Source: Fibrobacterota bacterium
GTDB lineage: Bacteria; Fibrobacterota; Chitinivibrionia; Chitinivibrionales; FEN-1185
Assembly (NCBI GenBank): GCA_003165595.1
Contig: PLWQ01000028.1
Coordinates: 181,144-245,143, forward strand
DNA: 64,000 bases
Direction: 5' to 3'
Numbering within the stretch: position 1 is the stretch's first letter; each line of letters starts with the position of its first letter. The translations under genes were made by a program, and so were the position numbers. Shown one piece after another: positions 21,331-48,299 of this stretch. A model generated the notes under the pieces. It was not told where the DNA came from, ran no database searches, and saw only the letters and a list, made by a program, of their open reading frames with translations.

Positions 21331-21366
21331 CCGCCCCGGGTTACCCCGGGGCGGTTTCTTTTTTTT
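21331..21366 (+). terminator. Strong rho-independent terminator
   Basis: The inverted repeat CCGCCCCGGG / CCCGGGGCGG (21331-21354) with a TTA-type loop is followed by TTTC and eight T residues. It ends the 20854 gene and touches the stop codon of the convergent nickel transporter ATPase gene, so it probably works for one or both strands. Confidence 0.85.
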
Positions 21367-22202
21367 CATCTGAATCCGCTGATATCGCGATGGTGCGGGT
21401 GTTCGTGGCCATGCTCATGCAGGTGCGCGTGCGCGACGCCAAGGTGCCTGTGCACGTGAATGTGCACGAGATTGTTCTGCTGCAGAAATTCCGTATCGGC
21501 CAGAATCTCCTCGGCGGTCCCGCTGCGTATCACGTTCTTGTTGCCGCCGAACACATGGACCACATCCGCGATTTCTTCCACAATGTGTAAATCGTGAGTC
21601 GCCATGACCACGGTCTTTCCGTTCTTATGCGCCTGATCGATGACGTCGATGATGTCGCGCATTGTCTGCGGGTCGAGACCGGCAGTAGGTTCATCCAGCA
21701 GGAGGACCTCGGGTTCCATGATGAGCACCGAGGCGATGGCCGCCTTCTTTTTTTCTCCCAGGGAAAGCTGGTGCGGCGACCGGTCGAGCAGGTGTGAGAT
21801 CCTTATTCTGTTCGCCAGTGCTTCAAGTCTGCGCCGGATTTCTGCATGATCGACACCAAGCTGCAGTGGCCCGAATACGATGTCTTCTCTGACCGTGGGG
21901 CAGAACAATTGCACGTCGGGATTTTGAAACACAAACCCGACGCGGGAACGGAAATCGCGCTGCCTGCCTGCGTCTCGCATTGTTTTCTCGGTGAGTTGGT
22001 TTCCCCAGGCAGACACGATGCCGCTATTCGCGAATATCAATGCGTCGAGCAGGGTAAGCATGGTTGATTTTCCCGTGCCGTTGGCGCCGATGATTGCCGC
22101 CCGCTCGCCCTGGTTGAAGTCAAGCGTGAGGTTTTCGAGCGCAGGTATGCCGCCCGGATACGAATAGGAAACGTCTTTCAGCGAAAAAACAGATTGAGCC
22201 AT
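21366..22202 (-). CDS. nikO: Nickel/cobalt ECF transporter ATPase, CbiO/NikO type, His-rich tail
   Basis: This ATP-binding subunit powers an energy-coupling-factor transporter. The start ATG 22202 (MAQSVFSLKDVSYSY) is set by homology; it overlaps the preceding nikQ by 25 bp. Walker A is GANGTGKS, the Q-loop is VFQNPDVQLF, the signature is LSLGEKK, and Walker B is VLLLDEPTAGLD followed by switch THDLH. The last 40 residues hold many histidines (HIHVHRH, HAHLHEHGHEHPHH), which is unusual for this subunit and fits metal sensing or buffering. It is the last gene of nikMNQO and ends against a strong terminator. Confidence 0.9.
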   Translation of the reverse strand: MAQSVFSLKDVSYSYPGGIPALENLTLDFNQGERAAIIGANGTGKSTMLTLLDALIFANSGIVSAWGNQLTEKTMRDAGRQRDFRSRVGFVFQNPDVQLFCPTVREDIVFGPLQLGVDHAEIRRRLEALANRIRISHLLDRSPHQLSLGEKKKAAIASVLIMEPEVLLLDEPTAGLDPQTMRDIIDVIDQAHKNGKTVVMATHDLHIVEEIADVVHVFGGNKNVIRSGTAEEILADTEFLQQNNLVHIHVHRHLGVAHAHLHEHGHEHPHHRDISGFR

Positions 22203-23026
22203 AGGGTTCCGATCAGCGCCATCAGCGCAGCGAGGAGGATAACAACGTCGGGGACGCGTGCATGGAATTCGTCGAGCACGAACGCCTCTCCCGAAAAGCC
22301 ACGGGCGACCATTGCGTCGTACACCTGTGAATGAAGACGGTACGAGCGAAGCCACAGGCCTGCCATGTTTGCGGTGACTATCTTTCGGCCGTCCCTGGTG
22401 GATGCCACGAATCCAACGCGGCTCTTGATCGCAATGAGCATTTTCTGGATTATGTCAAGAAACAGGAAAATATACCTGTAGGTCATGCCCATGGTCATCA
22501 CAAACAGCTGCGGAACCCGGAAGACCCGCAGGGTCTTGAGCAGCACGTGCTGGCGCGTGGTGAGTACCAGCAGCACGGCAAAGGAAACCGAATCGAGCAC
22601 GCGCATGAAAAAGACGATTGCGGAATCCACGCCTTGACGTGTGATGGTGAGATTCCAGAGCAGGACCTTGAATGACGCGAGCGGTTCGCCCGGCGTCACG
22701 CCGCTGAAAATTGCCGGAACCACGATGAAAAGCGAAAAGACCGGGACAAACAGCAGCGTACGCTTCAGAAAAAAGAACAGACCGATCGCAGAAAGAAGGG
22801 CCATGCACAGCACTGCAGCGTACAGCACGGACAATTCGGCAAGATTTCTCGACATGAGGACCGCGATGAGCAGCGCAGCAGCGCTCAGGCATTTGAATCG
22901 GGGATCGCGGTGCTGCAGGAAGCCGTTTCTCGCGGCAACGTTCTCAACGGAAACGGTTTCCTGCAGCAGGGAGACCGCGCCTTGGATGGTGCGTTCCAGA
23001 AACCCGCCGCTTGTTTTGCCGCTCAT
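22178..23026 (-). CDS. nikQ: Nickel/cobalt ECF transporter transmembrane (T) subunit
   Basis: The 282-residue CbiQ/NikQ family protein couples the ATPase to the substrate-binding subunit. The start ATG 23026 overlaps the upstream stop as ATGA. It has about five to six membrane helices. A conserved late segment, LRSYRLHSQVYDAMVARGFSG, contains the A-R-G motif that contacts the ATPase. HRDPRFKCLSAAALL near the N-terminus also fits the family. The operon order M-N-Q-O is complete. Confidence 0.9.
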   Translation of the reverse strand: MSGKTSGGFLERTIQGAVSLLQETVSVENVAARNGFLQHRDPRFKCLSAAALLIAVLMSRNLAELSVLYAAVLCMALLSAIGLFFFLKRTLLFVPVFSLFIVVPAIFSGVTPGEPLASFKVLLWNLTITRQGVDSAIVFFMRVLDSVSFAVLLVLTTRQHVLLKTLRVFRVPQLFVMTMGMTYRYIFLFLDIIQKMLIAIKSRVGFVASTRDGRKIVTANMAGLWLRSYRLHSQVYDAMVARGFSGEAFVLDEFHARVPDVVILLAALMALIGTLWLNLFFR

Positions 23027-23364
23027 CGCCTGCTTTCCTTCTTGGAAAGCAACCTGCCCAGCAGTAACGCCAGGCCCACGCATAAAGCAATGCCCAATAC
23101 CGCGGAAACGACATAGGCAAGACTCAGATGCCCGAGTCCAAGGTTTTCCCAACCCTTGAAGGAATAATCCCGAAACGGTGCGTTCCACAGCGATCCGAGT
23201 TTCCTCAGTCCATGCGGTACGTACCCAACCAACCCATGCATTTCCTCCGCTCCCCACTCACCCCAGGCAGATCCGGCCTTGAACTTTTTCGGCAAGTAAA
23301 GTCCGATCGGCGTGAGGATTGCCAATACACCAAGCCCGATCCATAATTTCGTGGTCGTTTTCAT
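23023..23364 (-). CDS. nikN: PDGLE/NikN-type accessory subunit of the nickel transporter
   Basis: The 113-residue protein has two membrane helices (about 7-24 and 80-106) around a periplasmic segment (GEWGAEEMHGLVGYVPHGLRK). Position, size and topology match NikN/CbiN-like PDGLE proteins that stabilise the metal-binding M subunit. It overlaps nikM by 4 bp and nikQ by 4 bp, which indicates translational coupling. Confidence 0.75.
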   Translation of the reverse strand: MKTTTKLWIGLGVLAILTPIGLYLPKKFKAGSAWGEWGAEEMHGLVGYVPHGLRKLGSLWNAPFRDYSFKGWENLGLGHLSLAYVVSAVLGIALCVGLALLLGRLLSKKESRR

Positions 23365-24047
23365 GATGCTGCCTCCCTGTTATGACCGAGCAGGGTCGGG
23401 TCCTGAACCTGGAGGAATTTAACAACCAGCGACGTAACGGCGAGTTCTACAAACCCGAACAACAGATGCCCGCCTACCATAGAAACAACGGCCACTTTGA
23501 TTCCATACGGACAGTACAGGGCCTGTCCTGAGGCAGTATGATGCAACAGCGGCTGTATTCCGAATTCCAGTCCCGCGCAGACCGACGCAATTACGAGGCC
23601 CGCATAGCCGGCAATGCCTGCGGCAACCACCCTCCGGAACGATTTTACCGGACTGTTCCCGCTTATCAATCTATACACGAAATACCCCGTAACCGGCAGG
23701 ACAAACGCCATGTTGAAGCAGTTCGCGCCGAGCGCGGTGATGCCGCCGTCACCGAACAGCAAAGCCTGAATGACGAGCGCGACACTCACCGCGATGCAGG
23801 CGGCCCAGGGACCCAGCAGTATGGCAACCAGAACTGCGCCTACGGCATGACCGGTGGTTCCTCCGGGTATGGGTACGTTGAACATCATGATGACAAAAGA
23901 GAAAGCCGCTCCGATGGCGAGCAGCGGCACCTGCCGGGCAGCCAGCGTTTTTTTCACCCGGCGCGAAGCGATGATCCAGGCCGGGACCATGGCGGCATAG
24001 GCAACGCCGCAAGTGATGGGACCGAGATAGCCGTCGGGAATGTGCAT
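23361..24047 (-). CDS. nikM: Nickel/cobalt ECF transporter substrate-binding subunit CbiM/NikM
   Basis: This S-component binds Ni(II) or Co(II) through its N-terminal Met1-His2 and His residues in the membrane. The product begins MHIPDGYLGP, the diagnostic start, and has seven predicted helices. GGTTGHAVGAVL supplies the conserved His, and LGANCFNMAF is also typical. First gene of nikMNQO; the promoter region upstream (24048-24160) contains two palindromes that fit NikR operators, shared with the divergent TonB receptor gene. NikR itself is encoded at 51496-51912, which favours nickel over cobalt. Confidence 0.92.
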   Translation of the reverse strand: MHIPDGYLGPITCGVAYAAMVPAWIIASRRVKKTLAARQVPLLAIGAAFSFVIMMFNVPIPGGTTGHAVGAVLVAILLGPWAACIAVSVALVIQALLFGDGGITALGANCFNMAFVLPVTGYFVYRLISGNSPVKSFRRVVAAGIAGYAGLVIASVCAGLEFGIQPLLHHTASGQALYCPYGIKVAVVSMVGGHLLFGFVELAVTSLVVKFLQVQDPTLLGHNREAAS

Positions 24048-24083
24048 GGGAATCTCCCTGCAAGAAAAATAATGGATGGGTTA

Positions 24084-24112
24084 GGTAGCATGAAAAAAAA
24101 GTTCATGCTACC
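24084..24112. promoter_or_regulatory. Perfect palindromic operator, probable NikR box 1
   Basis: GGTAGCATGAA (24084-24094) and TTCATGCTACC (24102-24112) form a perfect 11-bp inverted repeat with a 7-bp spacer. It lies between divergent nikM and a TonB receptor gene. Total span and half-site spacing resemble known NikR operators (for example GTATGA-N16-TCATAC), with a different half-site sequence. NikR assignment is inference from context. Confidence 0.7.
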
Positions 24113-24116
24113 ATTC

Positions 24117-24143
24117 GTGGCACAAAATATATATTCATGCTAC
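24117..24143. promoter_or_regulatory. Second, degenerate operator, probable NikR box 2
   Basis: GTGGCACAAA (24117-24126) and TTCATGCTAC (24134-24143) repeat the box 1 design with the same 7-bp spacer. The left arm has three mismatches. Centre-to-centre distance from box 1 is 32 bp, about three helical turns, so two repressor tetramers could bind on one face of the DNA. Confidence 0.6.
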
Positions 24144-24261
24144 TGCGCTACAGCGTTTTTTGCTTGTTTTGGTTGGCGCGATGAGTGGCGGGGCGCCAAA
24201 AAAGGTCCCGGCTTGCTATGAGGCGATCCAAGGTCCACCATCCCACAGAAAGGGGACGACG

Positions 24262-26484
24262 ATGAGGAAGGTTTCTTGTTTGGCGCGTTTTGGGAACAAC
24301 AGAGCGGAGTTCTTATTTTCGCAAGCAAATCGTTTGATCCTCGCGGTATTGTTTCTTACGGCCGTATCCCGGGCCGAGGTTCCTCATCCCAATGAGATTC
24401 CGATTCCGGTGGAAAGCGATTCGGCAGTCGCGGTTGTGAAGGACAGTGCCAATGCATCAAACGATTCGTCCCAGACGGCCAAGCCCGCGAAAACAAATTC
24501 CGGAATAACGGAGCTTACGCCGATAAACGTGATCGGGCATTATCAGAACAAAACCGGAACCACCAGCGCAGCCAGCAGCGGTACCTACACCAGTCAACTA
24601 CTGGAAGATCGTCCAATCCTGCGGCCCGGCGAAGTGGAAGAGGTTGTTCCGGGTCTTATTGTAACGCAGCACAGCGGCGCGGGAAAGGCAAATCAATTCC
24701 TGTTGCGCGGCTTCAACCTTGACCATGGGACCGACTTCGCGACTTCCGTCGACGGCGTGCCAGTAAATCTGCCCACGCAAGGCCACGGACAAGGCTATGA
24801 CGACCTTAACTTTGTAATCCCCGAGCTCATCGACCATGCCGACTATTTCAAAGGGACATACAATGCGGCAGAGGGAGATTTCTCTTCCGCGGGAGCCATC
24901 AACATATTCTATGACAAACAGCTTGCCCATCCTTTTGTAACGGCAACGCTCGGCTCATATAGCTACTACCGTTCCCTTGGCGCCGCGTCCACCGATCTGG
25001 CCGGCGGGAAACTGCTTCTCGGGCTTGAAGCCATGCATCAGGACGGACCGTTTGTTGTTCCCCAGGATTATAACAAGTACAACGGAATGTTGCGGTGGTC
25101 CCGACAGCTCGGGGAGGGAACTTTTGATGTAGAAGCTATGTATTATTCGGGTGAGTGGAACGCCACCAACCATATCCCCCAGCGGGCCGCGACAGAGGGC
25201 CTCATCAGCATCTGGGGCACCGAGGATTCCAGCGACGGCGGAACGTCTCACCGCTACAGCCTGTCAACTTCCTGGAAAGGACAGCTTGGAGGCGGCGTGC
25301 TTTCGGCTAACGCATACATTGTGCAGTACGCCATGAATCTTTTCTCGAATTTCACCTACTTTCTGGACGACACGGTGAACGGGGATCAGATGAACCAGAA
25401 AGACAGCCGGTGGTTCTTCGGATCATCGGACAACTGGCAGCGGGAATTCTCGTTGCTGGGTTTCCAGGAAAAGGCACGGATTGGTGTTGACGCGCGTTGC
25501 GACCTGATTGATCCGGTAGGACTGTTGCACACCGATCACCGGCGAGTACTGGAATCCTGGGGTGTGGACAGCGTTGTCGAAACGAAAATTGAACCGTGGA
25601 TCGATCTGGACAACCGGCTCACGCCGTGGATGAAAGTTATGCTCGGGCTGAGAGGTGTATATCTTAATGCCGATGTGCGTTCGGACTACACGGTAAACTC
25701 CGGGAGTGCCGAAGCGAGCATGCTTCTCCCAAAGGTAACGGTTGTTTTGGGACCGTGGGCCAAAACCGAGTTCTATGCCAATTACGGTGACGGGTATCAC
25801 TCAAACGACGTCCGCGGCGCCACTGCAACCATAAATGATAAGTCGGGAGATTCCGTTGACAAAGTAACGCTACTTGTACGGTCGCGCGGGTTTGAAATCG
25901 GCGGACGCAACGACGCCGTTCCCGGCCTGCAAAGTTCACTTGCGCTATGGCTTTTGGATTTCAACTCGGAGCTGGTATGGGACGCAGACGAAGGAACCAC
26001 CGACGCTTCGGCGCCATCCCGCCGCATGGGTGTTGAATGGAGCGAACGCTGGCAACCGCTGCCATGGCTGCTTTTCGACCTTGACGTAGCATATTCTCAG
26101 GCTCGATTCATTAACCCGGACACTAACGGACAGTATGTGCCGGAGGCAATTGAGTCGATGATGTCGGCCGGCGCATCCATTCACAGGCTCGGACCGTGGT
26201 CGGCTAGCCTTTTTGTGCGCTACGTTGGACCTCGGGCGCTTGTTCAGGACAACAGCGAACGGTCTGCCGCTTCAACGCTGTTTAACGGCCAGGTCGCCTA
26301 CGACTTCAATCGCAACATGCGGCTCACCCTAGACGTCCTCAATATCTTTAACGCACAAGTCAATGATATGGAATATTATTACACGACCCGTCTTAAGGGA
26401 GAGCCTGCCGCGGGCGTCAGTGACTTTGAAATTCACCCCTCCGAGCCGACGAGCTTTCGGCTGAGCCTGACGGTCAAGTTTTGA
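24262..26484 (+). CDS. TonB-dependent outer-membrane receptor, probably for a nickel complex
   Basis: ATG 24262 follows GAAAGGGG and gives a signal peptide. The 740-residue protein has a plug domain (about 110-230: PGLIVTQHSGAGKANQFLLR, then GFNLDHGTDFATSVDGVPVN and GTYNAAEGDFSSAGAINI), followed by a beta-barrel ending in SLTVKF. Such receptors import metal chelates across the outer membrane using TonB energy. The gene diverges from nikMNQO around shared operator palindromes, so a nickel substrate is inferred. A Ton motor is encoded nearby (29.4-34.3 kb). Confidence 0.88.
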   Translation: MRKVSCLARFGNNRAEFLFSQANRLILAVLFLTAVSRAEVPHPNEIPIPVESDSAVAVVKDSANASNDSSQTAKPAKTNSGITELTPINVIGHYQNKTGTTSAASSGTYTSQLLEDRPILRPGEVEEVVPGLIVTQHSGAGKANQFLLRGFNLDHGTDFATSVDGVPVNLPTQGHGQGYDDLNFVIPELIDHADYFKGTYNAAEGDFSSAGAINIFYDKQLAHPFVTATLGSYSYYRSLGAASTDLAGGKLLLGLEAMHQDGPFVVPQDYNKYNGMLRWSRQLGEGTFDVEAMYYSGEWNATNHIPQRAATEGLISIWGTEDSSDGGTSHRYSLSTSWKGQLGGGVLSANAYIVQYAMNLFSNFTYFLDDTVNGDQMNQKDSRWFFGSSDNWQREFSLLGFQEKARIGVDARCDLIDPVGLLHTDHRRVLESWGVDSVVETKIEPWIDLDNRLTPWMKVMLGLRGVYLNADVRSDYTVNSGSAEASMLLPKVTVVLGPWAKTEFYANYGDGYHSNDVRGATATINDKSGDSVDKVTLLVRSRGFEIGGRNDAVPGLQSSLALWLLDFNSELVWDADEGTTDASAPSRRMGVEWSERWQPLPWLLFDLDVAYSQARFINPDTNGQYVPEAIESMMSAGASIHRLGPWSASLFVRYVGPRALVQDNSERSAASTLFNGQVAYDFNRNMRLTLDVLNIFNAQVNDMEYYYTTRLKGEPAAGVSDFEIHPSEPTSFRLSLTVKF

Positions 26485-26623: not shown

Positions 26624-26923
26624 ATGCGCAACAAATCGATTTCCATAATTCAATCTTTACAGGAAAATCTTTTTTTAAAGATCTTCCTGTCGATGTATGT
26701 CTGCCTCTTTTTTGGCGTTGCCCTACCTACCCACCACCATAGTGACGGTGCGGACCATGACGACTGCGCGTTTTGCACCATGCAGAACCACGCCCCTGTG
26801 GTTGGCGCGGTTTTTTCTCTTCCAACGGTCACCGATGCCATCGTTGAATTGCCTTGCCAAATAGCGCAATCTTGCATTCCCGGCATTTTTTCCTCTTTTG
26901 ACAGCCGCGCACCTCCCGCTTAG
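26624..26923 (+). CDS. Small exported His/Cys-rich metal-associated protein (HHHSDG family)
   Basis: The 99-residue product has a hydrophobic signal segment (about 18-34, KIFLSMYVCLFFGVALP) immediately followed by THHHSDGADHDDCAFC. A later QSCIPGI and RAPP end it. A homologue with the same plan (PAHHHSDGQEHGDCSLC, QSCTPAI, RGPP) is encoded at 48477. DUF2946-type small proteins share the H...C..C idea, but I cannot assign the family firmly. Both copies lie just upstream of an outer-membrane metal-uptake gene, so metal binding in the periplasm, or sensing during export, is plausible. Confidence 0.6.
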   Translation: MRNKSISIIQSLQENLFLKIFLSMYVCLFFGVALPTHHHSDGADHDDCAFCTMQNHAPVVGAVFSLPTVTDAIVELPCQIAQSCIPGIFSSFDSRAPPA

Positions 26924-26965: not shown

Positions 26966-27103
26966 CCGGGAGACAAATAAGGTACTCCACGTCTAAATTA
27001 TTTAGGCAAAATGCATTCATAATTCAGACGGAGTATCTAAACAAATAGTCCGAACCCTCCCGGGCTTTCTGTGGCAATTTGTTTAACCATGCGACTCGGG
27101 AGG
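26966..27103 (+). promoter_or_regulatory. Structured leader that can mask the ribosome-binding site of the next receptor gene
   Basis: A long hairpin pairs 26980-27001 with 27019-27038 (AGGTACTCC.. with GGAGTATCT, AAATTAT with ATAATT; about 18 of 20 positions). It is nested inside CCGGGAG (26966-26972) / CTCCCGG (27057-27063). The same CCTCCCG (27056-27062) also complements CGGGAGG (27097-27103), the Shine-Dalgarno of the receptor at 27107. The two pairings exclude each other, the design of a translational switch. No known riboswitch consensus was recognised. Confidence 0.45.
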
Positions 27104-27106
27104 CAC

Positions 27107-29308
27107 ATGAAATTCATTTTAGAATTATTGATAAATCAACTACGCGGGTTTTCAGGAATTGTTTTGTCAAGGAATCCCTTGCGTAAATCGTTTTTCTTTG
27201 CGGTGACCGTTCTTTTTGCTTCATCACATTTTGTCCAGGCACAAACGAAGCCGGATTCCTCATCGCAAAAAATACGTATGCTCGATACAATGACTGTTAC
27301 TACCCAGAAACTCAACGAAGCCCGCCTGGACCGCCTGGGAGCCATGTCCAACGCCATCCAACCTACAAGCGTTGTTACGCCCGAAGCAATCTTTCTTAAA
27401 AACGCTGATGATTTCACTCAAGCGGTGACGTCGGAACCGGGCGTCTGTGTCTTGACGGGATGCAGTTCATGCGGTTTCAAGCAGATTCAGATCAATGGTC
27501 TTGGCGCCAATCATACCACCGTGCTTGTCGACGGCCTTCCGATTTACACACCGGTAACGAGTTTTTACGGAGTTGATGCGCTCACAACAGCAGGTGTCGC
27601 GGACATCGATATTTCACGCGGTCCAGGAGCATCTTTATTGGCGCCTGGCGCAATGGGCGGGGCCATGGACGTTCGTTTTCGCAACCCCACCCGTAATGCC
27701 ATTACGGCCGACGCCGCCATAGGCAATAACGACTGGAACCATCTTTCATTTTCAGGAACGGCTGTGCTGGACAGCGCGAAACTCGGCATCCTTGTTGCCG
27801 GCCATCATTTTTATGAAGGACAATGGGACGCCGACGGCAACGGCGTTTCCGAATCGCCGTCTCTCAATGATGAGAGCGCTTTGTTGAGGCTCAACGGTCT
27901 TATCGGCGAAAACTGGTCGTGGAATTTACGGTATATGCATGGCTACTCGGAGGTTTTCGGCGCGGCCGTGACGTCGAACCATATGGGCGCGGCAATTGGA
28001 CCGGCGGATTCGATTCCGCTGTACGCGGATGGGGATGTGCGAAAAGCCTTTGTAGGCAATCCTCAGGACATTATCGAATGGGTCCAAACAACGCGAGACG
28101 AAGCCGCCGGCGCGTTGACATGGGATTCTCCGCACCTTGGGACATGGCAGTTACGGACAGGCATTGCCAGCCAATCGCAAGTCTCCGAATACGAGGGAGG
28201 CGCGGACTATAACAATTCGGACAATAACGTCGTGGGAGACTTGCGGTGGATGGGAACTGCGTGGGCCAACACCCTGACACTGGGCGTTGACGCCAACATC
28301 GAAAGAATGGCGTCGCAATCCCACTACTATTACCAAGTTCTCGGAATTACTCCCGATTCTTATAATGCAACTTTCGGGGGCGGTTACGCGCAGGACGTAT
28401 GGAACTTCGGACATGAGCGGGACCTGTCTCTGGCGCTGCGCCTGGACGACATTGACGTTAATTGGATTAACAAGCCGGGCCAAAAAATCAACAATTTCAT
28501 AGCCGCTCCCCGGGCCAGCTTGCGTTGGGAGTTCATTGAAGGCCTCACCGGACGCGTGTCTGCCGGTTTAGGCTGGCGTGCACCGCTCACTTTTTTTGAA
28601 CTTGATCACGGTCTGTTGGATAACGGGTTCGACATTGGCGTTACCAAGTTGGAGAAAGCCGAAGGAGCGGGTGGCTCTCTCTCCTTCGACAGGTCGCAAT
28701 GGGAGATAACCGCCGGAGCCTACGTAACGCAAGTTTCGGATCTGGAATTCGTGGACAATAACCCAGCTTTACCGCGTCCTGTGTTGAGGAACGATTCCAT
28801 TCAACTTACTTTCTTAGACGTTGACGCCGAAGCTTCTTTTATTCCATGGAATTGGCTTAAGTTGGGCATAGGGATCGAACACCAGCAAATTCCCGATCAG
28901 TATAAAGCCGTCGAACTGGTGGCGGCCATGGAAACGGAGATCAACGGACGTGTCGAAATGAATTACGGACCTGCATCACTTTCCGGTGATGTGGCCTGGA
29001 CCGCGCCGCGAGACCTCACGCCTTACGGCTATACGGGCCAATACAACGTTTTTGAAAACGGCGTGGCCAGCGATCCCAAACTCACCCAAGCGCCCGGTTA
29101 TGCTGTTGTCAATTTGAAAGCGACTTGGAAGCTCCTTCCCGTCCTAGATCTTTACGCCGGGGCCGAGAACCTGCTCAACTACACCCAGACGGGCTCGGCC
29201 GGCGACGATCCCCACTTCTGGGATGATCAGGGCAATTTTAATACTTCACATATATGGGGACCGTTGCGAGGAAGGCAAATGTATGTTGGGTTGCGTTTGA
29301 AAACATAG
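27107..29308 (+). CDS. TonB-dependent receptor with Cys-rich plug motif
   Basis: ATG 27107 follows GGGAGG. The 733-residue protein has a signal peptide (ending FVQAQ), a TonB-box-like stretch (LDTMTVTTQ), and a plug domain containing CVLTGCSSCGFKQIQINGLG and TVLVDGLPIY. The barrel ends in YVGLRLKT. The C-x4-C-x2-C plug motif occurs in receptors linked to metal or metal-complex uptake, and the barrel holds an ENLLNYTQTG-type end. A small HHHSDG protein precedes it and the Ton motor genes follow. The substrate is not known; zinc, copper or another chelate are options. Confidence 0.85.
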   Translation: MKFILELLINQLRGFSGIVLSRNPLRKSFFFAVTVLFASSHFVQAQTKPDSSSQKIRMLDTMTVTTQKLNEARLDRLGAMSNAIQPTSVVTPEAIFLKNADDFTQAVTSEPGVCVLTGCSSCGFKQIQINGLGANHTTVLVDGLPIYTPVTSFYGVDALTTAGVADIDISRGPGASLLAPGAMGGAMDVRFRNPTRNAITADAAIGNNDWNHLSFSGTAVLDSAKLGILVAGHHFYEGQWDADGNGVSESPSLNDESALLRLNGLIGENWSWNLRYMHGYSEVFGAAVTSNHMGAAIGPADSIPLYADGDVRKAFVGNPQDIIEWVQTTRDEAAGALTWDSPHLGTWQLRTGIASQSQVSEYEGGADYNNSDNNVVGDLRWMGTAWANTLTLGVDANIERMASQSHYYYQVLGITPDSYNATFGGGYAQDVWNFGHERDLSLALRLDDIDVNWINKPGQKINNFIAAPRASLRWEFIEGLTGRVSAGLGWRAPLTFFELDHGLLDNGFDIGVTKLEKAEGAGGSLSFDRSQWEITAGAYVTQVSDLEFVDNNPALPRPVLRNDSIQLTFLDVDAEASFIPWNWLKLGIGIEHQQIPDQYKAVELVAAMETEINGRVEMNYGPASLSGDVAWTAPRDLTPYGYTGQYNVFENGVASDPKLTQAPGYAVVNLKATWKLLPVLDLYAGAENLLNYTQTGSAGDDPHFWDDQGNFNTSHIWGPLRGRQMYVGLRLKT

Positions 29309-29360: not shown

Positions 29361-29417
29361 CTCCGGTTTCGGCACTATTTTCTCAATGCAAAAGATTCTT
29401 TAATGGAGACAAAGCTT

Positions 29418-30251
29418 ATGATTCAGATCGTTCGCCCCGTGACGTTTGCAGCGGCACTAGCATGCTGTGCACTGGCAGGTCTTGTTTCGGCCCAAACACC
29501 ACCTCAGTCGATTGATGATGAAATCGCGCGGCTTCGCAAGGAACTTATCCAAACGCAAGTCGACGCCGAGCGAGTAGGCCAGGAAATGAAAAAGGACAAA
29601 CAAGACTTCGAAGCCTACCAAACACGCACATCCCAGCACCTGGCCCAAACGCAGAGCCAGCTTGATACTTTAAAATCCGAAACCGTGGTGCAGTCGCGGG
29701 CCGACGACGCGCTTGCCGCCCAGATTCGCGGTGTGCTTGCGCAACGTCATGAGATTGAGTTGTCGCAAGACGAGTTCCGCCAGAAGCTGATCCTCTTTTG
29801 CAATAACGTGACTCCTGAAGTCAAGCGATTGCCGCCCCTCATTATGGCGCCGACGCTATCCGGTCTTTCTCTTCTCATCAATGACCTGACCACCAAATCG
29901 GTTGATGTTGTCGAAGGGTGCACGCGGCTTGTGCAGATCCTTAACAAACTCGACGAGGCCGGTTCCAACATCCAGGTTTCACAGGAAAGCTCCCCCGCGC
30001 CGGACATTCCCGGCATGGTTTACCGTTTGCGTATCGGAACCATTTTTGAGGCCGTTGTCGATACAAAGGGCGAGAAATGCGCCGTATTCACGGGCTGGGG
30101 CGATGGCGGCGCTCCTCACTGGAAGAATTTGAATTCTCCAACAAGCGCCTTGGCCATTCTTCAGGCTGTTAACGTTCGGGAAGGAAAGTCGCTTCCTTCT
30201 TTTGTCAACCTGCCGATTGCCGTCGGAGCGGGACAGGAGGGTGTAAAGTGA
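29418..30251 (+). CDS. DUF3450 periplasmic coiled-coil protein of a TonB2-type motor
   Basis: I prefer ATG 29418 (GGAG upstream) over 29403. The 277-residue product has a signal peptide ending VSAQ and a long coiled coil (about 30-115: DDEIARLRKELIQTQVDAER). A conserved globular part includes YRLRIGTIFEAVVDTKGEKC and FTGWG. DUF3450 proteins accompany TtpC-ExbB-ExbD-TonB modules in Vibrio and other Gram-negatives, and are thought to help couple the motor to TonB. It overlaps the next gene by 4 bp (GTGA). Confidence 0.82.
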   Translation: MIQIVRPVTFAAALACCALAGLVSAQTPPQSIDDEIARLRKELIQTQVDAERVGQEMKKDKQDFEAYQTRTSQHLAQTQSQLDTLKSETVVQSRADDALAAQIRGVLAQRHEIELSQDEFRQKLILFCNNVTPEVKRLPPLIMAPTLSGLSLLINDLTTKSVDVVEGCTRLVQILNKLDEAGSNIQVSQESSPAPDIPGMVYRLRIGTIFEAVVDTKGEKCAVFTGWGDGGAPHWKNLNSPTSALAILQAVNVREGKSLPSFVNLPIAVGAGQEGVK

Positions 30252-31714
30252 ACAAGATACTCTTCTCAATTCTTTTCCTGACGGCCACGGCGTCCTTTGC
30301 CGGCAAGGCGGAAAAGATCCAAGCAATAAAAGAGGAGGAACGTAAGGAACTCCAAAACTCTCTCGATAAGTCGCGTGACAGCCTGCAGGAGCTCGTCACA
30401 AAACAATACGCGTTCGAGCAGCAGGCCGTTGAGATGAAAGAGGCAAACAAGGATGAGTTCGACAAGCTGCGCGAGCAGCAGGATCGAATGGAAACCGAAC
30501 TGGCGCGAATAAAGGAAGAACGGCTGAGCCGAGAGCAGTCGCTTGCCGATGAAGTCAAAAGCCTTGATGCAAAAAAAGAAGAGTGGACATACTTACAGAA
30601 CCAGATCAAAGACATTTTCCAGAAAGAGGCCGATGGACTCCTTGAGGTTTTCCCTCTCGACAAGGAAGTTCGCCGGGCGGAGCTTGAAAAGATCCGGGCT
30701 TCACTGAGTGAACATCACTCTCCGGGAGCGGCATTTGGAGCTTTTGTCAATTACCGGTTAGCATGGTTGGCCCTCGGTGATTCCATCACGTTTACCAAGG
30801 CCGTAGTTCTTCCTGAAGATGGCGGCCAAAAACAACTGACAATATCACGGTTCGGCAACGTGTTCGGGTACGGTACCGACTCGGCGGCCAAAACGTGCTA
30901 TTATTTGCGCCAAACGGGAAGACTCGGGGCGGATCGGTTTTCCGTTGAAAGAATTGCAGCGCCGCAGCTTGCCTCAAAATTGACCGAACAGTTTCCCAAA
31001 TGGCTGGCGGCAGGACGCATTTCCGGCTCAGTGCTTATGGAGGTTATGCAAAACGACCAGGCCCGCATGCTTATTGCGGGAAAAAGACAATCCACCGGTT
31101 TTGCGTTGTACGAATCGTTCGCCAAGGGCGGATGGGTAATGATTCCGATGCTCATGTTGCCATTCTGGGTGCTGTACCTGATGTTCGGCAAGATCGTTCA
31201 GTATACGGGGCGTGGTCGCTTACTTAAGGAACAATATACGGTGGCGATGAAATTACTTGACTCCAAGGATTTCGCCGGGGCTCTGGCATGGGCAAAAAAC
31301 TGTAAAAAGGGAGTAATGGCCCGAATTGTTGCAGCCAGCCTTGAACGACAAAGCCAAGGCAGACAAACGGGTGAACGGGCGGCGTACGAAATTCTTACCC
31401 TTGAGACGCCGCCATTGCGTCGACACCTCAATACGCTGGCGGTAATCGCGGGCGCGGCGCCGCTGCTTGGACTTCTGGGAACCATAAGCGGCATGATCAC
31501 GTTGTTCGCCGCGGTCACGCATTTCGGAACGGGAGACCCCAAATTTCTGGCAGGCGGCATATCCGAGGCGCTTATCACGGCGAAAACGGGGCTGGCTATT
31601 GCTATCCCGGTGCTGTTTATACACGACTTGCTTCGCGCCGCAAAGGATCGTCTGATGGCCGACTTGGAAAATGACACGATTTCCGTGCTTAATGCGGTCT
31701 ATCCCGAGGAATAA
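30248..31714 (+). CDS. TtpC-like MotA/TolQ/ExbB proton-channel protein with coiled-coil N-terminus
   Basis: GTG start coupled to the upstream stop. The 488-residue protein has a signal peptide (1-18), a long periplasmic coiled coil (about 20-125) and a soluble region. A C-terminal MotA/TolQ/ExbB domain (about 290-480) carries the hallmark APLLGLLGTISGMITLFAAV and GISEALITAKTGLAIAIP. In Vibrio, TtpC is the extra component of the TonB2 system. Only 3 bp separate it from the ExbB-ExbD gene. Confidence 0.87.
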   Translation: MNKILFSILFLTATASFAGKAEKIQAIKEEERKELQNSLDKSRDSLQELVTKQYAFEQQAVEMKEANKDEFDKLREQQDRMETELARIKEERLSREQSLADEVKSLDAKKEEWTYLQNQIKDIFQKEADGLLEVFPLDKEVRRAELEKIRASLSEHHSPGAAFGAFVNYRLAWLALGDSITFTKAVVLPEDGGQKQLTISRFGNVFGYGTDSAAKTCYYLRQTGRLGADRFSVERIAAPQLASKLTEQFPKWLAAGRISGSVLMEVMQNDQARMLIAGKRQSTGFALYESFAKGGWVMIPMLMLPFWVLYLMFGKIVQYTGRGRLLKEQYTVAMKLLDSKDFAGALAWAKNCKKGVMARIVAASLERQSQGRQTGERAAYEILTLETPPLRRHLNTLAVIAGAAPLLGLLGTISGMITLFAAVTHFGTGDPKFLAGGISEALITAKTGLAIAIPVLFIHDLLRAAKDRLMADLENDTISVLNAVYPEE

Positions 31715-31717
31715 GAA

Positions 31718-32755
31718 GTGTTCACGCCGTTCTTGAAACTTTTTTATGAAGGCGGATGGGTGCTGTTTCCCATCTTTGCCGTGTCGGCCGTGGTGTGGCA
31801 CATCGTGTTCGGAAAGCTGATTCGCTTTGCGCAATTGCGTACCGCGCGCAAGCGCGTTCATTCCGTTCTCGTGACGCAAAAAGCGGAGGCGACAACGCGC
31901 ACCGGTTATCCGGCCTTTGACGTTTTTGTCAAGCGCCTCCTGAAGCCGGGGATGAAACCGGAGCAGGTGGAACGCGCGTTCGATGAGCTGGTGATTGAAA
32001 TCAAGCCCCGGCTTGACCGTGGTTTTTCCACGATTGCCGCCTGTATTGTTATGGCGCCGCTGCTTGGCTTGCTCGGCACCATTACCGGCATGAACAGCAT
32101 GTTCGCCATTATCGGCCAATTCGGATTCGGCAATCCGACAATCATGGCCAACGGCATTTCCATGGCGCTTGAAGCAACCCTCACGGGTCTGGCGGTTGCC
32201 GTATCGTCGCTTTTGTTTCTGGATTACCTCAATACCGCAAAGCAAAAGCTTATTGCCGGCCTTCGTGAAGACCGGGACATAATATTAAACAAACTTCTAA
32301 GCGGCCGCTCCCGGACCAAGGCCGAGCAATCCAAGGGAGGATCAATGCGTCCCGTCAACAACCCATTCCACGAGGAACACCAGAATCCTGAAATCAACCT
32401 TGCGCCGTTTGTCGACACAATCATGATTCTTCTGATTTTCTTTGTGGTCACCGCAAACCTTTACGTTGAGACCGGCGTGGACGTATCCAAGCCAAAGGCG
32501 CAGAGCGCGCGGCCAGCGGGCCAGAAGGCGATACTCATCGGAATCACCCGAGAAGGCACGGTTCACATTTACGGACGACAAACTACTGTCGAACGGATTC
32601 GCACGATTGTTGAGCAGGAAGTGACCAAACAACCGGATGTGTCGGTGGTAATCGTATCCGACCGGGACGGAGCGGTAGGCAAAACGGTTGAGGTAATAGA
32701 CCAATGTACTCTTGCCGGGGCGCAGAAGATTTCAATTGCCGCAAATAAGGACTGA
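31718..32755 (+). CDS. ExbB-ExbD fusion protein of the Ton motor
   Basis: Residues 1-205 are a complete ExbB: first helix GGWVLFPIFAVSAVVWHIVFG, then MAPLLGLLGTITGMNSMF and ANGISMALEATLTGLAVAV. Residues 210-345 are a complete ExbD: the single helix LAPFVDTIMILLIFFVVTA with the proton-carrying Asp233, and the periplasmic domain VSVVIVSDRDGAVGKTVEVI. Normally these are separate genes. No stop separates them. An internal AAGGGAGG at 32333-32340 stands 4 bp before ATG 32345 (Met210), so free ExbD could also be made. Fixed ratio or dual expression are both possible. Proton-motive force drives TonB. Confidence 0.85.
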   Translation: MFTPFLKLFYEGGWVLFPIFAVSAVVWHIVFGKLIRFAQLRTARKRVHSVLVTQKAEATTRTGYPAFDVFVKRLLKPGMKPEQVERAFDELVIEIKPRLDRGFSTIAACIVMAPLLGLLGTITGMNSMFAIIGQFGFGNPTIMANGISMALEATLTGLAVAVSSLLFLDYLNTAKQKLIAGLREDRDIILNKLLSGRSRTKAEQSKGGSMRPVNNPFHEEHQNPEINLAPFVDTIMILLIFFVVTANLYVETGVDVSKPKAQSARPAGQKAILIGITREGTVHIYGRQTTVERIRTIVEQEVTKQPDVSVVIVSDRDGAVGKTVEVIDQCTLAGAQKISIAANKD

Positions 32756-32761
32756 ATCCGA

Positions 32762-33400
32762 ATGAATTTGGTTTCGTATTGGTTAATTTGGACCGGCCGG
32801 TTGGCCCTTGCCGTTGTTGTGAGCTTTCTCTTATTCACCGGGGTTTCGCTTTTGCATGCCGCGGTGGGGCTTGGTTCCAAGGCGGATAGCCGGCAAGCAA
32901 GCAGGATTTCGGCAATTGACATCGTGAGTAAGCCGCCGGAAGAAAAGAAAATAACGCAGCTTCGCATCCGTCAAGTCCAAGCTCCGATGAACCGGGGAAG
33001 ATCCCTTGACAACCAGATGAACATGCGTTTTTCGCCGGACCTGGCCGTGGACGCGTCCGGGGAAGGCGGCGCGGGCGTGGCCCTGCAGAAACAGGAACTT
33101 TCCGCGGAAGTTTTTGAGCAGGGCCAAGTGGATCAGGACGCATTTCCGGAATCCGCGCCGCAGATCCCCTATCCCGAGCGAGCCGCCGAGCAAGGGATCA
33201 GAGGCGCGGTCGAAGTGGAATTCGTCGTCACGTACCAAGGAAAGATAACCAATATCCAGGTTACGAAATCGCCATCGTCTTTGTTTACCGAAGCGGTCAA
33301 GCGAGGAGTGGCGCAATGGCGCTTTAAGCCGGCAAGAAACAAGGGGATTCCGGTCAACCAGCGATTCCGCCAAATAATCCGGTTCAATCTCGATCAGTGA
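32762..33400 (+). CDS. tonB: TonB energy transducer
   Basis: The 212-residue protein has an N-terminal membrane anchor (about 8-35) and a linker that is less Pro/Lys-rich than E. coli TonB. The C-terminal TonB domain (125-212) has IPYPERAAEQGIRGAVEVEF, then VTKSPSSLFTEAVKRGVAQW, RFKPA and a final RQIIRFNLDQ. It spans the periplasm and contacts TonB boxes of receptors such as those at 24262 and 27107. It is in the motor operon, 6 bp after the ExbB-ExbD gene. Confidence 0.92.
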   Translation: MNLVSYWLIWTGRLALAVVVSFLLFTGVSLLHAAVGLGSKADSRQASRISAIDIVSKPPEEKKITQLRIRQVQAPMNRGRSLDNQMNMRFSPDLAVDASGEGGAGVALQKQELSAEVFEQGQVDQDAFPESAPQIPYPERAAEQGIRGAVEVEFVVTYQGKITNIQVTKSPSSLFTEAVKRGVAQWRFKPARNKGIPVNQRFRQIIRFNLDQ

Positions 33401-44061: not shown

Positions 44062-44961
44062 TCACCATTTTTTCTGACGACTTTGTTTACCCGACACCCT
44101 TTCCACGATTTTGGCCAAAATCCAAGCCATGCCATAAAACACCCCAAGCAACACCACGTCGGCCGGACCAACGGGAAAGTCCCATTTGTAAGCAATCCAG
44201 AATCCTGCCAGCGATGCAAATCCTCCCAGAAGGGACGCAAACAGGAGAAATTGCCGCATAGTTCGCGCGAAAAGATGCGCGGCAAGCGCCGGTATCAGCA
44301 GGAAGCCGAAGGATATAAGCGGCCCAACGCTGAGCACCGCTAAAGAAACGGTGATTCCGAGCAGGAGATACAAAACAATATCCCAGAACACGACGTTCTT
44401 GCGCAGTGTAACCGCCATCGCGCGATCGAAGGAAACAAGAAACAGTTCTTTGTGAAAGAGCGCGAGAATCCCCAAAACCAAGCCAAGAGCGGTTGCCGTG
44501 AGCGCAAGATCGAAATTTGAAATGGTGATAACCTCTCCTTTGAGCAGATCGAGCCACCCAAGTTCGGCATAGCGGTTCTTGGAGAGAATCAGAATACTGA
44601 GCGCCGCGGCAACGACATAGGCCGTTCCCAACCGGCCTTCGGCAAGACCGCGGCCCCGACGTTCCAGGAAAGCAAGTACCAGAATCGCGACCAACGTAAA
44701 AACCACCGAACCGACAAAAGCTATGGTGTGATCGCTTTGCGAGCTGTGGGTAGCTTGACTTACTCCAAACCATAATGGTGCCGACAGGGCGACGGCCACG
44801 CCGGTTGACGAAATTTGCGGCAGCGCCACACCCATGAACACCAATCTGCGCAACACAAGAAAGGCTCCCACGAGCGGGCAGGCAAACCCCACCAGGATGC
44901 TCGTGTAAACCGAATTCCGCAAAAGAAAGTCCGGAGACAAGATTTGTAACAGGGTTTCCAT
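44062..44961 (-). CDS. znuB: Zinc/manganese ABC transporter permease
   Basis: The 299-residue ABC-3 family permease has about eight helices. GAFLVLRRLVFMGVALPQIS is the typical N-terminal segment, and LGTAYVVAAALSILILSKNR and GPLISFGFLLIPALAAHLFA are conserved later. It forms the channel of a metal importer together with the ATPase 2 bp upstream and the binding protein at 45863. Zinc is the likeliest metal from the company of a His-rich binding protein and porin; manganese cannot be excluded. Confidence 0.9.
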   Translation of the reverse strand: METLLQILSPDFLLRNSVYTSILVGFACPLVGAFLVLRRLVFMGVALPQISSTGVAVALSAPLWFGVSQATHSSQSDHTIAFVGSVVFTLVAILVLAFLERRGRGLAEGRLGTAYVVAAALSILILSKNRYAELGWLDLLKGEVITISNFDLALTATALGLVLGILALFHKELFLVSFDRAMAVTLRKNVVFWDIVLYLLLGITVSLAVLSVGPLISFGFLLIPALAAHLFARTMRQFLLFASLLGGFASLAGFWIAYKWDFPVGPADVVLLGVFYGMAWILAKIVERVSGKQSRQKKW

Positions 44962-44963
44962 TC

Positions 44964-45692
44964 TCAGCCGACCTCCATTTCAAAAATCGAAGCCAGACGT
45001 TCCGGCATAAGCATTTCGGCAACCGGGCCGTACAGCACCTTTCCCTGATGCAGCCACACCACATGTTGAGCATGCTCCCGGACAATAGGCAGGTCGTGGG
45101 TCACCAGCAGCACCGTAATTTCCTTTTCCCGGTGAATCCTTGAAATAAATTCCAGGACCGCGTGCGTCGCTGCCGCGTCCACCGCAGCCGTCGGCTCGTC
45201 GAGAACAAGAACGTCCGGCTGTGTGACGAGCGCACGCGCGATAAGCACACGCTGTTTTTGACCGCCCGACAGCTCCGCGAACCTCGCCGTCGCAAAGCCC
45301 TGAGCGCCAGCCGCTTCGAGGCACACGTGCGTGAATTCACGCTCGCTGGCAGGCACGAACCTGCCCGGTTTGATGCGACCGTACGAGCCCATGAGCGCGA
45401 CGTCGAAGCCGGTAAAGGGATAGAGCGGGTCGAGGGCGCTTGATTGCGGAACGTACCCGAAGATTATCGGCGTTCCGGAAGGTTTCGCCAGCGCAACGCG
45501 GCCTACCACCGGAGGAATCAAGCCGAGAATCGTCTTGAGCAACGTTGATTTACCAGAACCGTTGGAGCCGAGGACCGCGGTAAAACTCCCTTGGTTGATG
45601 GAGAGGGAGATATCCCTCAAAAGGGGCTCGCCGTTGTAGCCGATGCTCAGGTTCTCAAAAGTAATTATGGCTGAATTCATCCCAGGCACCAT
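44964..45692 (-). CDS. znuC: Zinc/manganese ABC transporter ATPase
   Basis: The 242-residue ATPase has Walker A GSNGSGKS, Q-loop GYVPQSSALDP, signature LSGGQKQR, Walker B VLVLDEPTAAVD and switch His in LVTHDLP. These are complete. AAAGGAG lies immediately before the first ATG; the next codon, GTG, is better spaced and could be the real start. It is nearly contiguous with znuB. A gap of 170 bp separates it from znuA. Confidence 0.93.
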   Translation of the reverse strand: MVPGMNSAIITFENLSIGYNGEPLLRDISLSINQGSFTAVLGSNGSGKSTLLKTILGLIPPVVGRVALAKPSGTPIIFGYVPQSSALDPLYPFTGFDVALMGSYGRIKPGRFVPASEREFTHVCLEAAGAQGFATARFAELSGGQKQRVLIARALVTQPDVLVLDEPTAAVDAAATHAVLEFISRIHREKEITVLLVTHDLPIVREHAQHVVWLHQGKVLYGPVAEMLMPERLASIFEMEVG

Positions 45693-45862: not shown

Positions 45863-46792
45863 CTACTTGCCTACCGCATCGACCATGGTGCTCACGATAT
45901 AGTCCATCATTTCAATATACGTGTCGGTCTGAGCAACCCCTCCCGGCATAATCGGCAATGTCACCAGTTTGGCGCCGGCTTTCTCTGCAATCAGCCTAGG
46001 AACTTTTTCCGGGAATTGCGGCTCGCGCACGACAAGCGGCACGTGGTCGGCTTTCATCATGGAAATCAGTTCTTCGATATGCCTCGGCGTCGGATCAATT
46101 CCCGGCTTGAGTTCAATTGTACCAACGTAACGCAGGCCGAAACGATCGGCAAAATAGGGCCAGTGCTCGTGATATGACACAAACTGCAAGCCTTTGAGCG
46201 GCTTCATCTTTTCCCGCCACGCGACGATCTTGGTATCGAGTTCCGCTAGATATGTATCGCGGTTGCGCTCAAAGACCGCCCGGTCCTTGGGATCGAATGC
46301 CACAAGGGCTTCACAGATTTCCTTTACCGCGGTTTCGGCCAGGACTGGATCCAGCATGTAGTGCGGGTTTCCATAAGGATGCACGTCGCCGCCGGAGTGG
46401 TCAGTGGTCTTGGGCACGTCAACCGGAACGATGTTTCTTGCACAGTCAACATATCCCTGATGCCCTACCTGTATCCGGGGATTCTTGCTAGCCTCAAGGA
46501 GTGCGGGCAAAAAGGCGTGCTCACAATCGAAACCGACGAGCACCACAAGATCGGCCCTGTTGAGCACCGGAACGAAACTGGGCTTCATAGGCACGCCGTG
46601 CGTGTCTTCGACTCCCGTGGCAAGACTGCGAACATCCACAAGGTCCTTTCCGACTTCGCGCGTAAAGTCCGCCAGGTCCGTAAGCGTTGTCACCACGCGG
46701 ACTTTTGCCTGTACGGGCAACGCCGCCCCGAATAATGCGGCTACGACGAGACAGATGGTGGTAAGTAAACGGATTGCGTTTTTCATTTGCAT
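45863..46792 (-). CDS. znuA: Zinc/manganese ABC transporter substrate-binding protein
   Basis: The 309-residue cluster A-I binding protein has a signal peptide ending VQAK. Probable metal ligands are the His in EDTHGVP, the His in GNPHYMLDP, the His in SYHEHWPYFADRFGL, and an acidic residue near the C-terminus. A short His-containing loop (TTDHSGGDVHPYG) is present but lacks the long His/Asp tract of many ZnuA proteins. It lies between the porin gene and znuC in one direction, so it feeds metal from the porin side to the ABC channel. Confidence 0.9.
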   Translation of the reverse strand: MQMKNAIRLLTTICLVVAALFGAALPVQAKVRVVTTLTDLADFTREVGKDLVDVRSLATGVEDTHGVPMKPSFVPVLNRADLVVLVGFDCEHAFLPALLEASKNPRIQVGHQGYVDCARNIVPVDVPKTTDHSGGDVHPYGNPHYMLDPVLAETAVKEICEALVAFDPKDRAVFERNRDTYLAELDTKIVAWREKMKPLKGLQFVSYHEHWPYFADRFGLRYVGTIELKPGIDPTPRHIEELISMMKADHVPLVVREPQFPEKVPRLIAEKAGAKLVTLPIMPGGVAQTDTYIEMMDYIVSTMVDAVGK

Positions 46793-46847: not shown

Positions 46848-48233
46848 TCAACGCTGTTGCCAACCGTGAGAGTGCGAACCGATGATCCACGACCATTGCA
46901 TGTAAACGGCATCGTCATTTGATAAGCCGAGAACGTGATTGCTTTCGGTATGAGTGTATTGAAGCCGCAACTGGTTCCAATGGCTCAGCGCCCAGGTGAT
47001 GTAGGGCGAATATTGCGCCGTTTGGTCATGAGCGTTTAGATTATTCTGCACCCACTCATACAAAAACCCCGCGGACCACTCACGGCTGAATTTGTAGGTC
47101 AAATAGGAGTAGACGCCCCACGCGCCGACCGAGTCCTCGCCCATGATACTTCCGGCGGAAACGCTGTCGCGATATACGTTGTCGCTGTAGAGCGCCTCTG
47201 TGCCCCATGTCAAGCTTTGGAACTGGTTGTTACGCAAGGGAACCCACTTAAGGGAAAAATCCGCCCCAACCAACCGCCGTTTCTTTTCGGTGAGCGTGCT
47301 ACCGTCCGGTTGCACCAGCACGCCGCCCCTGTCCTCGGTTCTGGGGTTGTAAAGACCCGAGACGCCCATTTCGGCCTGCCAATCGGGTGTCAGGTCGAAA
47401 TAGGTCGACAGCCGGCCCCAGTAGTTAAGCTCGTCAAATTGCCGGATGTCGCCGGGATTGCTTGGTGGAATGTCTCCTCCGAAACCATCGCCCGCGCCCG
47501 CAGAGAGGCTTACGTACTGCGGCAGCGGTATCAGCCAGTTTATCTGAAATCCGTCGCTCCTTGATTCGCCGCCGATGTACTCGTCAAGCACGAGCGGCCG
47601 ATTAACAAAGGGGAGCTCGTGATCGTGGATGTATCCCAAGCGTCCAAATTCACCAAAGAACCGTCCCGCTTTGAGTTCAAGATTCCATGGAAGCGAGTTG
47701 GTCTGCAACGCGGCTTCTTCGATGCCCATAGTGGCTTCGCCGGTAACCGGATCCGCCGAGGCATTGATAACCGCGTAGCCCTTGGCGAAGGGATCCACCG
47801 ATGCCGCGACGTTGAGTTCCACCGATCGCGCATTTATGTCGATCCCGCCTGGACGATCGCTGCCGGTTTCCACCTTGCCTTGCGTGCGATACGACGTGAC
47901 CAACTCGCCGACCAAACCGATAGACGGATTGAATTCGTTCGGCTTAGACTGCTTCTGTGCCCCGGAAATGGAATTGACTTTCTCGGTCAATTCTTCAATC
48001 CGCTCCTCCAAATCCCGTACGGACTTTTGATCGACCGCGGAAGGCGCCGAGGGTGCGGCCGCCGTTTTTGCCATATCCGAAGCGGAAATTCCTTTTTTCA
48101 AGTCGTTTACCTGCTGCTGCAAAAGTTGTATCTGTTGCTTGAGGGAGTCCAGCGGCGACTCGCTCTTCTGGGCGTATGAGACGGTAGTCGTTGCACCGAT
48201 AATAAGGCACAACAACGAAGGAAATATTTTCAT
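46848..48233 (-). CDS. Outer-membrane porin with coiled-coil N-terminus, probably metal-regulated
   Basis: ATG 48233 follows AAAAGGAG. The 461-residue protein has a signal peptide (ending VSYAQ), a coiled coil (about 22-90: LDSLKQQIQLLQQQVNDLKK and EERIEELTEKV) and a barrel (110-461). The barrel includes LELKAGRFFGEFGRLGYIHDHELPF-type strands and many aromatic belt residues. Its place as first gene before znuA-znuC-znuB suggests it admits zinc or a zinc complex. The C-terminus (WIIGSHSHGWQQR) adds His residues, which is unusual for a barrel end. Confidence 0.8.
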   Translation of the reverse strand: MKIFPSLLCLIIGATTTVSYAQKSESPLDSLKQQIQLLQQQVNDLKKGISASDMAKTAAAPSAPSAVDQKSVRDLEERIEELTEKVNSISGAQKQSKPNEFNPSIGLVGELVTSYRTQGKVETGSDRPGGIDINARSVELNVAASVDPFAKGYAVINASADPVTGEATMGIEEAALQTNSLPWNLELKAGRFFGEFGRLGYIHDHELPFVNRPLVLDEYIGGESRSDGFQINWLIPLPQYVSLSAGAGDGFGGDIPPSNPGDIRQFDELNYWGRLSTYFDLTPDWQAEMGVSGLYNPRTEDRGGVLVQPDGSTLTEKKRRLVGADFSLKWVPLRNNQFQSLTWGTEALYSDNVYRDSVSAGSIMGEDSVGAWGVYSYLTYKFSREWSAGFLYEWVQNNLNAHDQTAQYSPYITWALSHWNQLRLQYTHTESNHVLGLSNDDAVYMQWSWIIGSHSHGWQQR

Positions 48234-48238
48234 TGTTT

Positions 48239-48299
48239 CTCCTTTTGTAAAAGGCTGCTCTGTTCCTCGCACTATGAGCACCGAACGCCTCATGAACAG
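48239..48299 (-). promoter_or_regulatory. Leader hairpins before the porin gene, one masking its ribosome-binding site
   Basis: On the minus strand the Shine-Dalgarno AAAAGGAG (48239-48246) lies in a small hairpin CCTTT-TACA-AAAGG (48241-48254). Just upstream, CTGTTC-ATGAG pairs with CTCAT and GAACAG (48260-48299) to give a longer stem with one bulge. Both lie between the HHHSDG-protein gene and the porin gene. Confidence 0.35.

Follow-up and report, generated by a model that had tools for sequence, protein, structure and literature searches.

Two small exported proteins encoded in a 64,000-nucleotide stretch of Fibrobacterota DNA (the window) are probably regulatory leader peptides. As upstream open reading frames (uORFs), they would control the uptake genes behind them through a metal-responsive arrest of their own nascent chains, the metal most likely being zinc. 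The motifs of these leaders, their spacing, their position and their neighbours are observed directly; from these we infer ribosome arrest, metal binding and the direction of control.

Copy 1, a putative arrest-peptide sensor, occupies positions 26624-26923 of the forward strand and encodes 99 residues in an open frame that matches the family profile and carries its motifs. Residues 37-51 (26732-26776) form the metal segment, HHHSDGADHDDCAFC. The known arrest motif RAPP is encoded at 26906-26917, 43 residues past the CxxC and one residue before the stop, within the C-terminal end SRAPPA; the protein also contains THHHSDGADHDDCAFC. Copy 2, the second sensor uORF, is placed at 48477-48791 on the reverse strand, with an uncertain start (48884, 48791 or 48746). 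Its full frame, 48477-48884, encodes 135 residues, and the true start is probably further in, near 48791 or 48746. By sequence and motif survey its metal segment, HHHSDGQEHGDCSLC, lies at 48636-48680, and RGPP, a published strong arrest motif, at 48498-48509, 42 residues past the CxxC. This protein contains AHHHSDGQEHGDCSLC and ends in TRGPPLPPPIV.

The sequence-only reading of this DNA had described two homologous exported proteins at these positions, and our searches bear this out: with copy 1 as the query against the whole 5.39-Mb genome, copy 2 was recovered at an E value of 3.9e-17, far beyond chance, and the two proteins are 38-39% identical. Both contain the HHHSDG-x2-H-x-DC-x2-C and R-PP motifs that had been noticed, the latter as a C-terminal R(A/G)PP. 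The third proposed motif, QSC.P.I, occurs in both window copies, but the family at large does not conserve it. Searches of the 5.39-Mb genome with the family profile and with copy 1 revealed no third copy. Copy 1 scored 17.8 bits against DUF2946 (PF11162), below the gathering cut-off of 23.7, while copy 2 had no match to this Pfam family. Neither window protein was matched in NCBIfam, and no known RNA family was matched in an Rfam search of the window.

Profile searching, using 12 relatives to build the profile, identified 48 copies in 45 of 168 Fibrobacterota genomes; the large genus g24 we infer to be Fibrobacter. In all 47 copies that have both motifs, CxxC and RxPP are separated by 42-45 residues (44 in 29 copies and 43 in 16), and RxPP is placed 1-10 residues from the C terminus. 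The motif reads R[AG]PP in 46 of these 47 (RAPP in 28, RGPP in 18) and RATP in the remaining one. A hydrophobic segment, the export signal, is present in 47 of 47 members. Alignment of 38 members revealed that the only invariant residues are H37, H39, C48, C51, R95, P97 and P98, all seven of which fall within the metal segment and RxPP; H45 is conserved in over 90%, and the alignment shows no conservation between the two segments. DUF2946 was matched at E <= 0.1 by 32 of 38 relatives, the best at 4.9e-6. Among named genomes, copy 1 as the query returned nothing and a consensus-like query returned one Chitinispirillaceae MAG, apparently the same contig as that of a relative in the set above. 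No relatives were found in the viral contigs and plasmids searched, and one alignment (A1) lacked any block of sufficient conservation for scanning contigs.

A second strongly hydrophobic stretch lies between CxxC and RxPP in 36 of 47 members, so that during arrest the His/Cys loop may be flanked by a pair of membrane-seeking helices. The two window copies fall below the threshold. One Fibrobacter copy (L077, genome G060) has an early stop that leaves a 57-residue frame and removes the RxPP end. Its downstream receptor is also in pieces, a case of joint decay of sensor and target.

These features bear on two explanations that do not invoke metal-responsive arrest. A hydrophobic export segment combined with RAPP is the layout of SecM and ApdA, and the family might consist of secretion or insertion monitors in which the metal motif is incidental. 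We find this very unlikely, given that the downstream genes encode metal uptake rather than sec or yidC functions and that HxH..CxxC never varies and keeps a fixed distance, a constraint that sensing force alone would not impose. The second explanation, a periplasmic metallochaperone or metal-delivery protein feeding the outer-membrane and ABC uptake systems, was one of two roles suggested by the sequence-only reading. It would account for the export signal in every member and for the conserved metal ligands, and AlphaFold predicted two helices around the His/Cys loop with a mean pLDDT of 81, but a pTM of 0.47. The pattern of conservation argues against it: the metal segment, the spacing and the RxPP at the C-terminal end, near-invariant and at a fixed distance, are all that is kept, and the remainder of the protein can vary. 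In the locus of the nearest relative of copy 1, L079 from the same genus, the receptor is 93.9% identical and the intergenic DNA 86.9%, but the uORF only 31%, and the uORF matches cluster in the metal segment and SRAPPA; a metallochaperone acting as a mature protein would be expected to keep its sequence. Moreover, a PDB profile search found no relative of known structure, and CruR, the copper-responsive DUF2946 uORF of Bordetella pertussis, acts only in cis, and its protein product was not detected (Roy et al. 2022, PMC9426467). We consider the metallochaperone improbable, whereas the other suggested role, a leader-type sensor for zinc or some similar metal, agrees well with the evidence.

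Each copy directly precedes an outer-membrane uptake gene, as had been proposed. The end of copy 1 is separated by 183 nt from the ATG of a TonB-dependent receptor gene (27107-29308, forward strand), the product of which has a Cys-rich plug (VCVLTGCSSCGF) and matches plug and TonB barrel in Pfam. Energising genes follow on the same strand (29403-33400), assigned by Pfam to DUF3450, ExbB, ExbB-ExbD and TonB. The leader 3' of copy 1 is unusually structured (z = -2.94); it contains a long hairpin at 26981-27038, between copy 1 and the receptor gene, that is kept in the aligned L079 sequence. The tail of the uORF carries CCUCCCG at 26912-26918, complementary to the CGGGAGG of the receptor Shine-Dalgarno (SD), with a predicted duplex energy of -14.3 kcal/mol. 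The SD and its ATG (27107) span 27097-27109. A second anti-Shine-Dalgarno CCUCCCG at 27056-27062 is paired with 27097-27103 in the predicted fold. By eye, the tail, a GGGAG near 26967, the CCUCCCG at 27056 and the SD make an attractive ermC-like four-segment switch. We dropped this candidate and do not claim such a switch, because in the predicted fold the SD stays paired with 27056-27062 even when the tail is masked. No convincing intrinsic terminators were found between uORF and target. Upstream of copy 1, the region 21366-26484 contains cobalt/nickel ECF-type genes (CbiM, CbiQ and ATPase) divergent from another TonB receptor gene, the 3' end of which lies 139 nt before copy 1.

The first target of copy 2, reached after 243 nt on the reverse strand, is a porin gene (46848-48233; SD at 48238-48245) whose product has a His-containing C terminus, GSHSHGWQQR. 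It is followed by znuA, znuC and znuB, encoding a ZnuA-type metal-binding protein (45863-46792, reverse; best NCBIfam match the zinc protein AztC), a ZnuC-type ATPase (44964-45692, reverse; best match the zinc protein AztA) and a ZnuB-type ABC-3 permease (44062-44961, reverse). A porin homologue also adjoins the uORF and znuACB in L082. Structured leaders had been proposed for both intervals; this holds for copy 1 but not for copy 2, whose 3' leader is not unusually structured (z = -0.31). Also close to the copy 2 locus is a gene for a NikR-type regulator (51496-51912). Divergent from copy 2, at 48931-50602, lie two similar genes in tandem; their exported products have CGT/CGV-type N-termini, contain a PGCGCTVVKFDT motif and look DUF1573-like by eye. 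The genome's second znuA (G000:C35:16498-17705) adjoins a Fur-family gene; no member of the uORF family accompanies it.

Random genomic contexts or unconserved motif residues among homologues would have counted against the sequence-only reading. Instead, the motifs are kept and about 40 of the 48 copies lie at zinc-uptake loci. The uORFs are codirectional with metal-homeostasis genes across a long intergenic gap, as in the window. A ZnuA homologue is encoded downstream at 13 loci, copy 2 included. At some 27 Fibrobacter loci the uORF is placed between znu genes and those for a His-rich lipoprotein and a ZnuD-like receptor; in Fibrobacter it is operon-internal, following znuACB and an orphan gene almost or entirely without a gap. 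The gene order at L105, for example, is Fur-family gene, ZnuA, ATPase, ABC-3 permease, 141-residue orphan, uORF, lipoprotein and receptor; the lipoprotein ends in HEHHHDDEDHDHDHHDHEHEHED, and the best NCBIfam match of the receptor is ZnuD (E = 4.5e-46). Several relatives carry either a ZigA-like zinc GTPase (E = 3.6e-89) or a NicO permease further on, one locus has DUF1007 with NicO, and another has a ZnuA relative with an ArsP-type permease; as no neighbour match lies above the NCBIfam curated equivalog cut-offs, all these names give nearest families only. The orphans form a family of 141-163 residues without a Pfam match, with the sequence GTMVY.QVYQMV..P.K..GK and the end FPIIRNA; almost every Fibrobacter locus has one separating the znuB-type gene from the uORF (for example L105:7105-7530). 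The zinc operons here may be under a Fur-family repressor, in which case the leader would be a second layer of control.

By this association zinc is the most likely metal for copy 2 and for the clade, although ZnuA-type transporters also carry manganese. For copy 1 the assignment to zinc rests on the near-identical metal segment, because its receptor has no zinc gene beside it. The same arrest-peptide leader could instead sense copper exactly like CruR, the zinc neighbours being misleading or the site promiscuous. Both studied relatives, CruR and CutF, are copper-responsive, copy 1 has the CruR arrangement with a TonB receptor next, and the ZnuD-like receptors weakly match a copper receptor family (E = 1.9e-7). 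Against this stand the neighbours themselves, namely znuABC, the ZnuD-like receptor, the His-rich lipoprotein and the ZigA-like GTPase, with no copper gene seen among the annotated neighbours, as well as the histidines adjacent to CxxC, which are invariant here and not among the conserved motifs listed for CruR. We therefore regard copper as unlikely. Nickel or cobalt would be suggested by NicO at some loci, by the CbiMQO and NikR genes within the window, and by a proposal of these metals for some His-only CutF relatives, which occur beside HupE/UreJ (PMC9973294). NicO, however, shares Fibrobacter loci, L052 and L053 among them, with ZnuD-like receptors, and the CbiMQO and NikR genes are outside the uORF operons, which leaves these metals a very small chance.

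With zinc as the preferred ligand, the leader would operate as follows. When the metal is scarce, the ribosome translating the leader would arrest at the C-terminal R-A/G-P-P and the downstream uptake genes would stay on. The metal segment, 42-45 residues behind the arrest point, would then be just out of the exit tunnel. When plentiful, the metal would be bound by the His-rich/CxxC segment, and the metal-bound chain would fold or be pulled, relieving the arrest; the ribosome would depart and the uptake genes would be off. In part of the family this off state may be aided by pairing of the leader tail with the downstream SD, a pairing that would be masked while the ribosome is stalled. Termination by Rho, the route known from CruR, may contribute or take its place; the second halves of the two window uORFs are C-rich and G-poor (33.3% C and 20.7% G, and 40.8% C and 19.7% G).

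The effect of a stalled ribosome was modelled by predicted folding with a 32-nt mask at RxPP, the readout being the SD opening energy of the next gene; downstream start codons were picked by script and a few were corrected by hand. Masking freed the SD by more than 1 kcal/mol at 20 of 44 loci (mean 1.29), compared with 11 of 142 ordinary codirectional gene pairs from the same DNA (mean -0.01). The contrast was 16/27 versus 11/82 within Fibrobacter and 4/17 versus 0/60 in other genomes, and because loci within one genus share ancestry and are not independent, its P values overstate the evidence. When the mask was slid along the leader, the effect was strongest within 6 nt of the Arg codon. In some loci the predicted release can be traced to complementarity between the SD and codons located at RxPP or downstream of it, examples being L089 (UUCUCUCGAU with AUCGAGAGAA) and L091 (CUCUCGG with CCGAGAG); across the family, tails pair only slightly better with their own SD than with swapped ones (mean -10.0 versus -8.5 kcal/mol). 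The masking gain was 1.6 kcal/mol for copy 1, with its second anti-Shine-Dalgarno kept, 0.2 for copy 2, and none for L079. The modelling thus suggests that a stalled ribosome may open the SD in part of the family, weakly for copy 1 and not for copy 2.

In one Fibrobacter group we also observed a candidate three-helix RNA conserved between the uORF stop and the lipoprotein start (L087, L088, L090-L095, L050, L052-L055, L057 and L060). It has a GCAAC...GUUGY closing stem, two inner hairpins and conserved CUUUUUGCC and GGUGUUUU blocks, with two-sided changes in only three pairs.

For the family as a whole, the balance tips slightly towards a RAPP/RGPP arrest-peptide clade that senses zinc on the nascent chain and controls outer-membrane zinc uptake, in Fibrobacter from within the znu operon, the leader's own tail serving as an anti-Shine-Dalgarno in part of the family. 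If so, this would be the first nascent-chain zinc sensor that we have come across. It would mean that an arrest peptide of this kind can be adapted to a second metal, perhaps through added histidines, and would offer a direct test of how a metal outside the tunnel frees a stalled ribosome. It would also explain how outer-membrane zinc uptake could be set separately from the inner-membrane transporter in one Fibrobacter operon. The pattern CxxC-(42-45)-R[AG]PP gives a simple rule for finding such sensors elsewhere.

The family had been called possibly undescribed. Its architecture is that of the published CruR and CutF uORFs, and the kind of device is known from these and from RAPP arrest peptides; what is new is the link to zinc uptake, the placement inside the operon in Fibrobacter, the invariance of the histidines and the predicted tail:SD pairing, and we did not find the zinc-uptake, operon-internal or Fibrobacterota use described. 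In the open-access literature we found no paper linking a CruR-type device to zinc uptake, and a 2025 survey of RAPP peptides does not mention zinc. A Caulobacter Zur paper lists two DUF2946 genes, only among the genes lowered in a zur mutant, one of which heads a zinc-efflux operon; DUF2946 genes near zinc genes have thus been seen before, but at efflux and not as uORFs. Plasmid pMOL30 contained no DUF2946 member with which copper and zinc motifs could be compared.

The closest known system is CruR. In the absence of copper its operon stays on through arrest at RAPP, which is relieved once metal occupies CxxC; the CxxC-RAPP distance of 45 residues, conserved to within one or two, is required, and a 162-nt intergenic gap separates CruR from a TonB receptor gene (PMC9426467). 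According to its authors, no uORF acting on a transition metal was known before CruR, and no riboswitch is known for copper or zinc (PMC9426467). In a purified system CruR stalls when the third RAPP residue occupies the P site and the fourth the A site; of the arrest motifs published, RAPP and RGPP are the ones that tolerate the widest range of contexts (PMC10951233, PMC12992588). The family described here shares with CruR the export signal, the CxxC, the C-terminal RAPP, the spacing of about 45 and the long gap, with a TonB receptor downstream in the case of copy 1. It differs in having zinc-uptake rather than copper neighbours, in the invariant histidines before CxxC, in using RGPP as often as not in Fibrobacter, where the uORF is operon-internal while CruR homologues are reported as the first gene of a copper operon, and in the SD release predicted for part of the family. 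CutF of Rhodobacter capsulatus, a DUF2946-like protein with CxxxC, serves a copper oxidase, which it turns on with copper (PMC9973294). It resembles the Fibrobacterota leaders as an exported nascent metal sensor with a Pro-rich C terminus and structure over the SD of the next gene; unlike the CutF target, the Fibrobacterota uptake genes would be expected to be off with metal. With the ApdA, ApdP and SecM class the family has in common the C-terminal R-A/G-P-P and a small exported protein upstream of the regulated gene. The studied members of that class monitor protein localisation, whereas here the metal segment would replace the pulling-force cue. The ermBL and MsrD leaders exemplify translation attenuators, where the ribosome, once stalled, covers part of the leader and thereby exposes the start of the following gene. 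The Fibrobacterota leaders would differ from these in that the cue reaches the nascent chain beyond the tunnel, and the part covered is the uORF's own tail, surrounding the arrest motif.
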